From Glacieibacterium frigidum (GTDB lineage: Bacteria > Pseudomonadota > Alphaproteobacteria > Sphingomonadales > Sphingomonadaceae): 64,000 nt of DNA. Of the stretch, positions 24,467 through 53,026 are shown piece after piece. Both the position numbers and the translations under genes were made by a program. The stretch lies in the NCBI RefSeq assembly GCF_007097155.1, contig NZ_VJWA01000002.1:310001-374000 (forward strand), in the 5' to 3' direction. Numbering within the stretch: the first letter of the stretch is position 1; the number at the start of each line of letters is the position of its first letter. Below the pieces are notes generated by a model. The model was not told the origin of the DNA. It saw only the letters and a program-made list of their open reading frames with translations, and ran no database searches.

Positions 24467-24691
24467 CGGCTCACTGCCCCGCAAGGTCGGGTGCGCATGC
24501 AAGCCACTCATCAATCCGCCCCGATCGTCGAGAGGCGCCGGGCGCGTCGACTGGATCGCCCGGCAAGATAGCCGGTCGATCGGTGGTGAACGCCGACATG
24601 CGGATCTGGTTCCTGACCTGCATCAATGCGGGAACGACTGGCCCGGCCCGCCGTTCGTGACGCCGACGGTTCATCCTGCGGGAAAATGATA

Positions 24692-25573
24692 ATGGCGGCG
24701 CGCGCGTATTGGTCCGGACAACTTCGTCTCGCTCTCGTTTCGATTCCCGTCGAGATTTATTCGGCGACACGGTCTGCGGCAACCATCGCGCTCAATCAAA
24801 TCCACGAACCGTCGGGCAAGCGGATCAAGTATGAGAAGACCGTGCCCGGGATCGGCGCGGTCGACGCTGACGAGATCGTCAAGGGCTTCCAGGTCGAGAA
24901 GGGCCAGTATGTCCTGCTGACCGACGAGGAGATCGAGGGCGTCAAGCTGGAGAGCAAGCGCACGCTCGAGCTGGTGCAGTTCGTCGATGCGAGCGAGATC
25001 GACCCGATCTATTTCGAGAAGCCCTATTTCGTCGTGCCCAAGGACGAACTGGCCGAGGAGGCGTTCCGCGTCATCCGCGACGCGATGCGCGGCGCGAAGA
25101 AGATCGGGCTGGGCCAGCTGGCGATGCGCGGGCACGAGTATCTGGTCAGTCTAAAACCCTGCGGGCGCGGCATGATCCTCGAGACGCTGCGCTATGAGGA
25201 CGAGGTCAACAAGGCGAGCGGCTTCTTCCGCGCGATCTCCGACGACGAGGCGCCCGAGGAGCTGATGGAGCTCGCCTCCGCGCTGATCGACAAGCGGACG
25301 AAGAAGTTCGACCCCAGCCTGTTCAAGGACCGTTACGACGACGCATTGCGTGCGCTGATCGACGCCAAGCGCGGCAAGAAGGGCGCAGTGGTCGAGACCG
25401 ACAGCGGCGACAAGAAGCCGTCGAACGTCATCGACCTGATGGCGGCGCTCAAGGCCTCGATCGAGAAAGGCGGCGGCAGCGACGCCCCCGCCCCGCCCGA
25501 CATCAAGCCGCGCGCCGCCAAGCCGCCGGCCCGGCGCGCCCCGGCGAAGGCGCCGGCGCGGAAGCGGGCGTAG
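24692..25573 (+). CDS. ku: Ku protein (bacterial NHEJ)
   Basis: This 293-residue homodimeric DNA end-binding protein begins with the family's AARAYWSGQLRLALVSIPVE. It continues with IKYEKTVPG, FVDASEIDPIYFEKPY and the C-terminal core (MELASALIDKRTKKFDPSLF), then a Lys/Ala/Pro-rich tail ending in RKRA. The tail is the usual extended, basic C-terminus that aids DNA binding. ATG 24692 lies nine bases after GGGA; ATG 24686 is a close alternative. The ligD gene starts four bases after the stop, so the two form the classic Ku-LigD pair. Confidence 0.95.
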   Translation: MAARAYWSGQLRLALVSIPVEIYSATRSAATIALNQIHEPSGKRIKYEKTVPGIGAVDADEIVKGFQVEKGQYVLLTDEEIEGVKLESKRTLELVQFVDASEIDPIYFEKPYFVVPKDELAEEAFRVIRDAMRGAKKIGLGQLAMRGHEYLVSLKPCGRGMILETLRYEDEVNKASGFFRAISDDEAPEELMELASALIDKRTKKFDPSLFKDRYDDALRALIDAKRGKKGAVVETDSGDKKPSNVIDLMAALKASIEKGGGSDAPAPPDIKPRAAKPPARRAPAKAPARKRA

Positions 25574-25576
25574 GGC

Positions 25577-28099
25577 GTGGCGCTCGAAAGCTACAACGCC
25601 AAACGCGACTTCGCGAAGACGAAGGAGCCTGCGGGCAAGATCGGGCGCAAGACGGGCAACAGCTTCATGGTGCAGAAGCACGCGGCGTCGCGGCTGCACT
25701 GGGATTTTCGCCTCGAGCTCGACGGCGTGCTGCTTAGCTGGGCGGTGACCAAGCCGCCGAGCGGCGACCCGTCGGTCAAGCGCCTCGCGGTGCGGACCGA
25801 GGACCATCCGCTGAGCTACGCGACCTTCGAGGGGACGATCCCCAAGGGCGAATATGGCGGCGGCACGGTGATGCTGTGGGACCGCGGCAAGTGGGAAAAC
25901 GAGGCCGACCCGCGCGAAGGCGTCAAGAAGGGCAAGCTGCACTTCAAGCTGACCGGCGAGCGCATGAAGGGCGAATGGGTCCTGATCCGCCTGAAACCCG
26001 AGGGCAAGGCGGAGAACTGGCTGCTGGGGAAGATCGCCGACGAGTTCGCGACCGGGGCGGACCTGGATTTCGATACCGGGGTCGCGAGTGGGCTGACGAT
26101 GGAGGAGATTGCCTCTGGGATCGTGCCCACCCCTAACCCCTCCCGTACCGGGAGGGGAACCCGCCTGAAGGTGAACACTCCCCCCAAACAGATTCCCCTC
26201 CCGGTACGGGAGGGGTTAGGGGTGGGCAGTGCCCCGCGCGCGAAGACCAAGGGCAAGGGCACCCCCCCCGCCTTCGTCGAACCCCAGCTCGCAACCCTCG
26301 TCGACACGCCCCCCACCGGCAACGCGTGGCTGCACGAGACCAAGTATGACGGCTACCGCGCCGTCCTCGCCGTCGGCGGCGGCAAGTGCGTCGCCTACAC
26401 CCGCTCGGGCCTCGACTGGACCGACCGCTTCCGCGCGGTCGCCGATGCCGCGGCCGCCCTGCCCTGCGACACCGCGCTGCTCGACGCCGAGATCGTCGCG
26501 CTCGACGAGCAGGGCAAGCCGAGCTTCAGCGCGTTGCAGGCGGCACTCAAGGACGGCGGGCCGATCATCGCTTTCGCGTTCGACGTGCTGCACCTCGACG
26601 GCGACGACCTGACGAAACAGCCGCTGACCGAGCGCAAGGCGGCGCTCAAGACCCTGCTCGCCGGCGCCCTCTCCCCGCTCCACTACGCCGAACATGTCCG
26701 CGGCGGCGGCGAGGCGATGTTCGCGGCGCTGTGCGCGGGCGGCTACGAGGGCGTCATCTCGAAAAAGGCCGATGCGACGTACAAATCGGGCCGCGCGGGA
26801 TCGTGGCTCAAGGCCAAGTGCATCCAGCGGCAGGAATTCGTCATCGGCGGCTGGTCGAAGTCGGAAAAGGGTCGCGGCTTCGCGTCGCTGCTGCTCGGGG
26901 TGCAGGAGGAAGGCGGGCTGCGCTACGCCGGGCGCGTCGGCACAGGCTTCGACGACCGGACGCTCGAGGACCTGACCGAGCGCTTCTCGAAACTGGCCGC
27001 CGACGCGTCGCCCTTCGCGGCAAAGCTGCCTGCGCTGGCCAAGCGGGGCGCGCACTTCGTGCGCCCCGAACTCGTCGCCGAAGTCGCCTTCGCCGAGTTT
27101 ACCGCCGACGGCCATGTCCGCCACGCCAGCTTCATCGGCCTGCGTGGCGACAAGCCAGCGAGCGAGGTGGTCGAGGAAAAGCCCGTCAAGGCGAAGGCCG
27201 CCGCCAAGCCCGCCAAGGCAAAGCCCGCGCCCGCCCCCACCCCCACCGGCGTCGTTATCTCCTCCCCCGACCGCATCGTCTTCCCCGAGCTTGGCCTGAC
27301 CAAGGGCGCGCTTGCCGCCTATTACGAGACCGTCGCCGACGTCATGCTGCCCGACCTCGGCGGCCGCGCGATCAGCCTCGTGCGCTGCCCGCAGGGACGC
27401 GCCAAGCAGTGCTTCTTCCAGAAGCACGACAGCGGCATGTTCGCCGACAGCGTCCATTCGGTCGAGATCGCCGAGAGCGACGGCAAGACCGAGCCCTATC
27501 TCTACGTCGAGGACGCCAAGGGCCTGCTCGCGTGCGTCCAGATGGGGACGATCGAATTCCACGGCTGGGGCAGCCGCGTCGCCGACCTCGAGCGGCCCGA
27601 CCGGCTGGTCATCGACCTCGACCCCGACGAGGCTGTCAACTTCGACGTCGTCAAGCTCGCGGCGGTACTGGTCCGCGACCGGCTGAAGGCGGCGGGGCTC
27701 GACAGCGCGCCGATGCTGACCGGCGGCAAGGGCGTCCACGTCGTCGCGCCGCTGACCCCCAAGGCCGATTGGCCGGCGGTCAAGGCGTGGGCGCGGGCGT
27801 TTGCCGAAAGCCTAGAGGCCGACGAGCCCGACGCCTTCGTCGCGAACATGAGCAAGGCGAAGCGCAAGGGCCGCATCTTCGTCGACTGGCTGCGCAACCA
27901 GCGCGGCGCGACCGCCGTGCTGCCGTTTTCGGTGCGGGCCCGCGAGGGCGCAGGCGTCGCGGTGCCGGTGACGTGGGACGAGCTGAAGTCGGTGACGGCG
28001 GGGAACGCCTTCAGTGCCGCCGATCCGGCCGCGGTGCTCGCGCACGCGCGGATTGCGCGGCCGAAGGTCAAGGCGAAGGTGCTGCCAAGCTCACCCTGA
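25577..28099 (+). CDS. ligD: DNA ligase D (phosphoesterase - ligase - polymerase)
   Basis: This 840-residue multi-enzyme of non-homologous end joining has its domains in this order. First is the 3'-phosphoesterase (residues 10-175: ASRLHWDFRLE, RTEDHPLSYATFEGTIP, GEYGGGTVMLWD). The ATP-dependent ligase follows (about 235-530, adenylated Lys256 in HETKYDGYRA). The primase-type polymerase is last (from about 557: ISSPDRIVFPELGLTK, Asp pair in IDLDPDEA, and GRIFVDWLRN). Residues 183-217 are encoded by a perfect 35-base inverted repeat (26125-26227) inserted in the linker between phosphoesterase and ligase; the frame is kept. The start is GTG 25577, weakly supported by a binding site but placed directly after ku, so probably coupled. 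Confidence 0.94.
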   Translation: MALESYNAKRDFAKTKEPAGKIGRKTGNSFMVQKHAASRLHWDFRLELDGVLLSWAVTKPPSGDPSVKRLAVRTEDHPLSYATFEGTIPKGEYGGGTVMLWDRGKWENEADPREGVKKGKLHFKLTGERMKGEWVLIRLKPEGKAENWLLGKIADEFATGADLDFDTGVASGLTMEEIASGIVPTPNPSRTGRGTRLKVNTPPKQIPLPVREGLGVGSAPRAKTKGKGTPPAFVEPQLATLVDTPPTGNAWLHETKYDGYRAVLAVGGGKCVAYTRSGLDWTDRFRAVADAAAALPCDTALLDAEIVALDEQGKPSFSALQAALKDGGPIIAFAFDVLHLDGDDLTKQPLTERKAALKTLLAGALSPLHYAEHVRGGGEAMFAALCAGGYEGVISKKADATYKSGRAGSWLKAKCIQRQEFVIGGWSKSEKGRGFASLLLGVQEEGGLRYAGRVGTGFDDRTLEDLTERFSKLAADASPFAAKLPALAKRGAHFVRPELVAEVAFAEFTADGHVRHASFIGLRGDKPASEVVEEKPVKAKAAAKPAKAKPAPAPTPTGVVISSPDRIVFPELGLTKGALAAYYETVADVMLPDLGGRAISLVRCPQGRAKQCFFQKHDSGMFADSVHSVEIAESDGKTEPYLYVEDAKGLLACVQMGTIEFHGWGSRVADLERPDRLVIDLDPDEAVNFDVVKLAAVLVRDRLKAAGLDSAPMLTGGKGVHVVAPLTPKADWPAVKAWARAFAESLEADEPDAFVANMSKAKRKGRIFVDWLRNQRGATAVLPFSVRAREGAGVAVPVTWDELKSVTAGNAFSAADPAAVLAHARIARPKVKAKVLPSSP
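26125..26227. repeat. Nested palindrome, family B, inside ligD
   Basis: Two 35-base arms (26125-26159 and 26193-26227) are perfect reverse complements. Each contains a smaller palindrome, CCCCTCCC-GTACC-GGGAGGGG, flanked by a GCCCACCCCTAAC / GTTAGGGGTGGGC outer part. The 33-base interior is also open in the ligD frame. The encoded residues (GIVPTPNPSRTGRG ... PLPVREGLGVG) have no counterpart in the LigD domains. Related elements lie at 35889-36021 and 52994-53026. Confidence 0.93.
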
Positions 28100-35888: not shown

Positions 35889-36021
35889 TTCCCCCCTTCC
35901 CTCTTCAGGGAGGGGTCGGGGGTGGGTGCGAGCGTCTTCGCGAGCCCTTCCTTTCGAGACAAGAGCGCGGCAAGGACCGCGCACCCACCCCCGGCCCCTC
36001 CCTGAAGAGGGAGGGGGGGCG
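35889..36021. repeat. Nested palindrome, family B variant, after ald
   Basis: Arms at 35889-35930 and 35980-36021 are inverted copies with about three mismatches. Each arm folds on itself (CCCTC-TTCA-GGGAGGGG type) and carries a GGGGGTGGGTGCG end facing inward. It occupies the whole gap between the convergent ald and lipoprotein genes and may terminate both. Confidence 0.9.
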
Positions 36022-52993: not shown

Positions 52994-53026
52994 GCTTCCC
53001 CCCTCCCTGAAGAGGGAGGGGAGCAG
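52994..53026. repeat. Half palindrome, family B, providing the astB ribosome binding site
   Basis: The sequence CTTCCCCCCTCCCT / AGAGGGAGGGGAG folds as one hairpin and matches a single arm core of the family B element after ald. It fills the 44-base gap between astD and astB. Its 3' strand GGAGGGG lies about nine bases before ATG 53030, so the element itself seems to supply the Shine-Dalgarno sequence. Confidence 0.75.

Follow-up and report, generated by a model that had tools for sequence, protein, structure and literature searches.

An in-frame palindromic repeat in ligD of Glacieibacterium frigidum and the association of its family with DUF559 nuclease genes

For many bacterial palindromic repeats, no mobilising enzyme is known. 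In the window analysed here, a stretch of 64,000 nucleotides from Glacieibacterium frigidum, the ligD gene harbours a perfect inverted repeat across which the reading frame stays open, and this raises the question of where such an insert comes from, whether it serves LigD, and which enzyme may have spread it.

The inverted repeat in ligD and its copies

The ligD gene (25577-28099, forward strand) codes for a protein of 840 residues, in which a Pfam scan recognises LigD_N phosphoesterase, ATP-dependent ligase and Prim-Pol domains, and its partner gene ku (24626-25573, forward strand; Pfam PF02735) lies just upstream. The inserted element (26124-26228) comprises 105 bp, corresponding to 35 codons, and is organised as a tail-hairpin arm, a loop and a hairpin-tail arm. 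The first-pass annotation had described a perfect inverted repeat of 35 bases in frame in ligD; the repeat is real, and its arms, 100% complementary and 33 nt apart, measure 36 bp rather than 35. The left arm, TGCCCACCCCTAACCCCTCCCGTACCGGGAGGGGAA (26124-26159, forward strand), belongs to a set of nine arms found genome-wide with at most three mismatches. The right arm (26193-26228, reverse strand), identified by the inverted-repeat and arm searches, is its perfect reverse complement, and the intervening 33-nt loop (26160-26192) is, by eye, the least conserved part among the copies. Each arm carries a REP-like hairpin (CCCCTCCCGTACCGGGAGGGG) and a G-rich tail (TTAGGGGTGGGCA). A hairpin search placed the cores at 26138-26156 in the left arm (CCCTCCCGTACCGGGAGGG) and at 26196-26214 in the right one, such a core being expected 0.01 times by chance in the window. 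The 3' side of the hairpin and the tail jointly form a G-quadruplex-type motif with four G runs, read in the sequence as GGGAGGGGTTAGGGGTGGG (26208-26226, forward strand), with its complement at 26126-26144.

The element reaches an inverted-repeat score of 36, whereas the 31 control windows of the same length taken from ligD score 9 at best. The frame remains open across both arms and the loop, adding approximately residues 183-218 (VPTPNPSRTGRGTRLKVNTPPKQIPLPVREGLGVGS) between the phosphoesterase and ligase domains, and the open reading frame and the Pfam domains thereby bear out the earlier claim of some 35 residues gained in that linker with the frame kept. Stop codons are absent from two of the three frames of each arm. 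The segment hosting the element is a linker modelled as disordered, with a pLDDT below 50 for residues 186-226 in the AlphaFold2 model. Folded as RNA, the element has a predicted energy of -97.6 kcal/mol (z = -10 versus shuffles), and the very stable mRNA stem that had been foreseen holds as a prediction. In an Rfam scan, nothing passed the threshold; the matches below it were to microRNA hairpins of animals and plants, of the kind that any long stem gives.

The insert is a dispersed repeat with the form of a REPIN-like doublet, that is, two inverted REP hairpins in a short dispersed pair. In the 3.43-Mb genome, three more paired copies of about 105 bp share 87-88% identity with the ligD element, and further arms of the family occur singly or paired in the opposite arrangement. 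One of the paired copies also leaves a gene's frame open, that of mutL, where it occupies the linker (C1:1072887-1072989) and is read in a frame that differs from that of ligD (GPPLTPPVPGGG...), and the other two are apparently intergenic, judging by their context. The mutL element is common to this genome (G000) and its sister species G001 (L002/L294, L295), and no comparable palindrome was seen in the other MutLs aligned; the insertion is therefore probably older than the split of the two species. At the four full copies, all of them filled sites, no target-site duplication was seen by eye.

DUF559 genes and the hairpins that bracket them

This genome has four DUF559 genes, and every one of them stands between hairpins of a separate family. 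Arms of the ligD family, at C1:1231906-1231946 and C1:1232286-1232391, bracket the DUF559 gene C1:1231953-1232264, which adjoins dnaG. A second family, with the loop CTCTTCAG, brackets G000:C2:460923-461222 and is represented in the window by an intergenic paired palindrome (35894-36016) and an intergenic single hairpin (53000-53021). Three of the four bracketing families are dispersed in this genome, the copy numbers of cognate arms being lower bounds, and for the gene at C1:1833755 no dispersed copies of its hairpins were seen. A DUF559 protein of this genome matches the solved DUF559 structure PDB 3hrl with an E value of 8e-21. Since the repeat belongs to a widespread class with copies that bracket DUF559 genes, the DUF559 nuclease is a candidate for the missing enzyme that spreads such repeats. 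In the open-access literature searched, with subscription papers and preprints outside the search, no report linking DUF559 to repeats was found.

The same arrangement is met across bacteria. When a locus was called bracketed if matching hairpins stood within 350 bp on both sides, 115 of 185 Pseudomonadota DUF559 loci qualified, compared with 1 of 359 windows displaced inside these loci and 1 of 1554 control windows from LigD neighbourhoods. The hairpins form an inverted pair in 90 of the 115 bracketed loci, and four-run G motifs lie on both sides in 51 of them (0/2397 control windows). Examples include Azospirillum lipoferum 4B AZO_p3 (WP_014249377.1), Sinorhizobium meliloti Ak57 (UIJ94135.1), Sphingomonas parapaucimobilis YK209 (WP_347091088.1, beside dnaG, and WP_347093239.1, between sufB and sufC), Deinococcus aetherius (WP_264778003.1) and D. 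proteolyticus (WP_041223130.1). Synechocystis DUF559 passed the test only partly, and that of Neisseria gonorrhoeae did not pass it. Cognate arms are dispersed in the genomes carrying their bracketed DUF559 genes. A nuclease gene that is bracketed by its own repeat family across genomes makes the question of the mobiliser testable. In other respects, the S. parapaucimobilis gene between sufB and sufC, with its hairpins, is located on plasmid unnamed5 (L360).

With regard to hairpin load, 150 Pseudomonadota genomes, which are not phylogenetically independent, were searched with a generic hairpin pattern. The median number of hairpins was 36.5 in genomes with DUF559 and 1 in those without, and at least 12 hairpins were present in 28 of 36 and 5 of 114 genomes, respectively. 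This contrast is seen within the class as well as outside it, and a reversed control pattern gave equal counts. Two genomes stand out by their hairpin numbers, G083 with 287 (and ten or more DUF559 matches) and G117 with 364, and both would be suitable as models. Furthermore, the more alike two DUF559 proteins are, the more alike their arms tend to be (Mantel rho 0.31, 0/999 permutations as high), and 13 of 14 DUF559 pairs at least 60% identical share the arm versus about 2.6% of pairs at 30-40% identity, a co-divergence that is confounded by joint vertical inheritance. An alignment of 88 DUF559 proteins shows D55, F56, E66, D68 and G69 (numbered in the L179 reading frame) to be 100% conserved, the invariance of the acidic residues being partly due to selection, as extraction required a D...E-x-D motif.

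We consider it probable, as a whole, that the ligD insert represents a non-autonomous doublet within a C-rich class of REPs that bear no tag, that such a doublet is tolerated in the linker, and that its class is mobilised by DUF559 nucleases. The doublet would have landed in frame in the disordered LigD linker and persisted there, the linker presumably tolerating about 35 extra residues and two of the three arm frames offering no stop. The class would be mobilised in trans by DUF559 nucleases (PD-(D/E)XK, Vsr-like), whose own genes stand between cognate inverted hairpins, as RAYT genes do between GTAG REPs, and the partner of the ligD element would be G000:C1:1231953-1232264. The nuclease may nick or cleave the hairpin or the tail, possibly in a G-quadruplex or single-stranded form at the fork, and copying may then proceed via repair. 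In favour of the proposal, the Caulobacter DUF559 protein VsrA provokes an SOS response when the methyltransferase ScmA is missing (PMC12907096). We also lean, with some reserve, towards the broader proposal that DUF559 nucleases serve specifically to mobilise a large REP class that bears no tag and extends over Pseudomonadota, Deinococcota and perhaps cyanobacteria, and that they are a source of in-frame insertions such as that in ligD.

Several observations count against mobilisation by DUF559. Five of the 114 DUF559-free genomes reach the threshold of 12 hairpins, and G001 has about ten matches to the CTTCAG family, which thus persists there, the DUF559 gene of that family being found only in G000. 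The dnaG-side gene looks immobile because its locus is syntenic in both species, and the C1:1833755 family is not dispersed. Seventy of the 185 loci were not called bracketed, some of them being cut by contig ends or having a weak second hairpin. Finally, the authors of the VsrA study take this protein to be a nuclease of mismatch repair (PMC12907096).

This reading of VsrA favours an alternative in which the host uses DUF559 as a nuclease for repair or defence and the DUF559 gene is a cargo, another transposase recognising the hairpins or the hairpins preferring adjacent insertion. DUF559 genes do occupy conserved places, e.g., beside dnaG in G000, G001 and S. parapaucimobilis, and lie inside operons such as sufB-sufC. 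However, the hairpin family is particular to each DUF559 gene, and similar DUF559 proteins go with the same arm in relatives. We know of no other enzyme common to these loci, which would count against the cargo explanation, and we regard it as unlikely, if worth keeping in mind. As a separate observation, the order dnaG, DUF559, GatB/YqeY, carA is kept in G000, G001 and S. parapaucimobilis (L179, L164, L359), with hairpins always around DUF559.

It appears improbable that the element is an ordinary REPIN spread by a RAYT, a tyrosine HUH transposase, that has since been lost, with DUF559 as an unrelated neighbour. The doublet has the same anatomy as REPINs, and RAYT genes can be lost according to the 2013 REP survey (PMC3733652). 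Nevertheless, a profile search for RAYT (Y1_Tnp, PF01797) gave no match in this genome and did give matches in control genomes, which led us to reject a RAYT as partner of the element. No GTAG tag stands at the foot of the hairpin in TGCCCACCCCTAACCCCTCCCGTACCGGGAGGGGAA or its complement. The bracketing frequencies (115/185 versus 1/359) and a hairpin load that follows the presence of DUF559 also stand against a lost RAYT.

The LigD linker in relatives

The comparison of 98 LigD proteins, nearly all alphaproteobacterial, gave a length of the linker region ranging from 66 to 157 aa. An inverted repeat scoring at least 13 is present in 19 of these linkers, and in 18 of the 19 no other window of the gene scores so high. 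The palindromes have arms of several different families, which makes the linker, judging from sequence, a recurrent and tolerated landing place for palindromes of various kinds. It can be regarded as a natural archive of protein insertions that recurred and were tolerated. In one Sphingomonadaceae MAG (L098), three palindromes, belonging to two types or more, stand in a row in a linker of 157 aa with the frame open.

Repeats from DUF559 flanks match 18 of the 98 LigD linkers, at 45 bits or more, versus 1 of 1168 control segments taken from these genes. This test is cleaner than a rank test that set LigD inserts against the DUF559 flanks of the same genome, in which the own genome came first in 5 of 20 cases; the latter result is equivocal because repeat families are shared between species. 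The inserts of L106, L078 and L093 have no strong match among the part of the DUF559 flanks that was fetched from their own genomes, a point to be held against mobilisation by DUF559. No match to DUF559 flanks was found for the inserts of L069, L072, L074, L077 and L082 either. By eye, these five show a short palindrome preceded by CGTC or GTC, and they are probably of the known CGTC type, as most of the inserts without a DUF559-flank match look to be. The CGTC-like palindromes of sphingomonad LigD linkers are apparently without a DUF559 partner.

If the palindrome was inserted, LigD of close relatives was expected to lack the segment as a clean in-frame gap. Insertion in the linker is supported by the relative L070 (68% best-segment identity), whose short linker contains no palindrome, and by the spread of linker lengths. 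The gap itself is only rough, owing to the hypervariable nature of the linker and to the other palindromes that several relatives, including the sister species, have at this place. Inheritance of the ligD insertion from an ancestor shared with the sister species was rejected, since the G001 linker carries a different hairpin (CCCCTCCCTGAACAGGGAGGGG), and the two ligD insertions are more likely independent.

These comparisons bear on whether the insert was kept for a benefit to LigD, its mRNA hairpin regulating translation or its peptide serving as a functional linker. The predicted stem is very stable and the arms are still perfect, which speaks for such a role; however, the linkers of relatives hold different families, frames and lengths, many hold none, and this variety suggests tolerance rather than one selected peptide, leaving a benefit to LigD as a very doubtful reason for the insert. 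An identity as Rickettsia palindromic element or CGTC-tagged REP is scarcely credible for this insert: its in-frame position in a protein gene and the CGTC-like palindromes in other sphingomonad LigD linkers (L072, L074, L077, L082, L069) are in favour, but its own arms lack the CGTC tag with an 8-9 bp stem and CCA tail, and they have a C-rich stem and form a different dispersed family.

Comparison with known repeat systems

The presence of REPs in frame in repair genes is not new. In 2013, Di Nocera et al. described DNA repair genes with in-frame doublets of REPs, 20-30 or more codons long, a pattern that the ligD and mutL inserts fit, although neither gene is among the examples named in the sections of that survey consulted here (PMC3733652). 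In that survey, the intragenic REPs are tagged with GTAG or CGTC, in contrast to the untagged ligD/mutL family, and the enzyme mobilising the CGTC class, like that of untagged repeats, is left open; with respect to this source, the new element is the link with DUF559.

Rickettsia palindromic elements (RPEs) likewise stand in frame in protein genes and are tolerated by the protein (review PMC10969869), and the resemblance in manner noted by the first-pass annotation, a palindromic element in frame in a linker, is supported. Kinship finds no such support: the arms come from a C-rich REP family that is local and has dispersed copies of its own and a bracketed DUF559 gene. RPE-4 and RPE-6 are of the CGTC type according to PMC3733652, and the ligD element has neither a tag in common nor a demonstrated family relation with RPEs.

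With regard to the proposed partner, DUF559 and Vsr-like nucleases such as Caulobacter VsrA and PDB 3hrl belong to the same protein family. The S. meliloti repeats beside the DUF559 gene have the tail-hairpin...hairpin-tail design, occur in many copies, and may, we presume, be Rhizobium intergenic mosaic elements (RIME1) or related palindromes, so that these would share the design with the ligD element.

The closest parallel is the REPIN-RAYT system, which has in common with the present one short tailed hairpins, dispersed and in inverted pairs, a nuclease-type gene bracketed by cognate hairpins, and one nuclease per hairpin family. It differs by its GTAG tag and HUH tyrosine transposase, whereas the repeats described here are untagged, with C-rich arms and, in many families, a G-quadruplex-type tail, and go with DUF559, of the PD-(D/E)XK fold, in a genome without RAYT. 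If the proposal holds, DUF559, a common domain of unknown function, would gain a role, and bacteria would possess a second REP-nuclease system with a mechanism unlike that of the HUH RAYTs.
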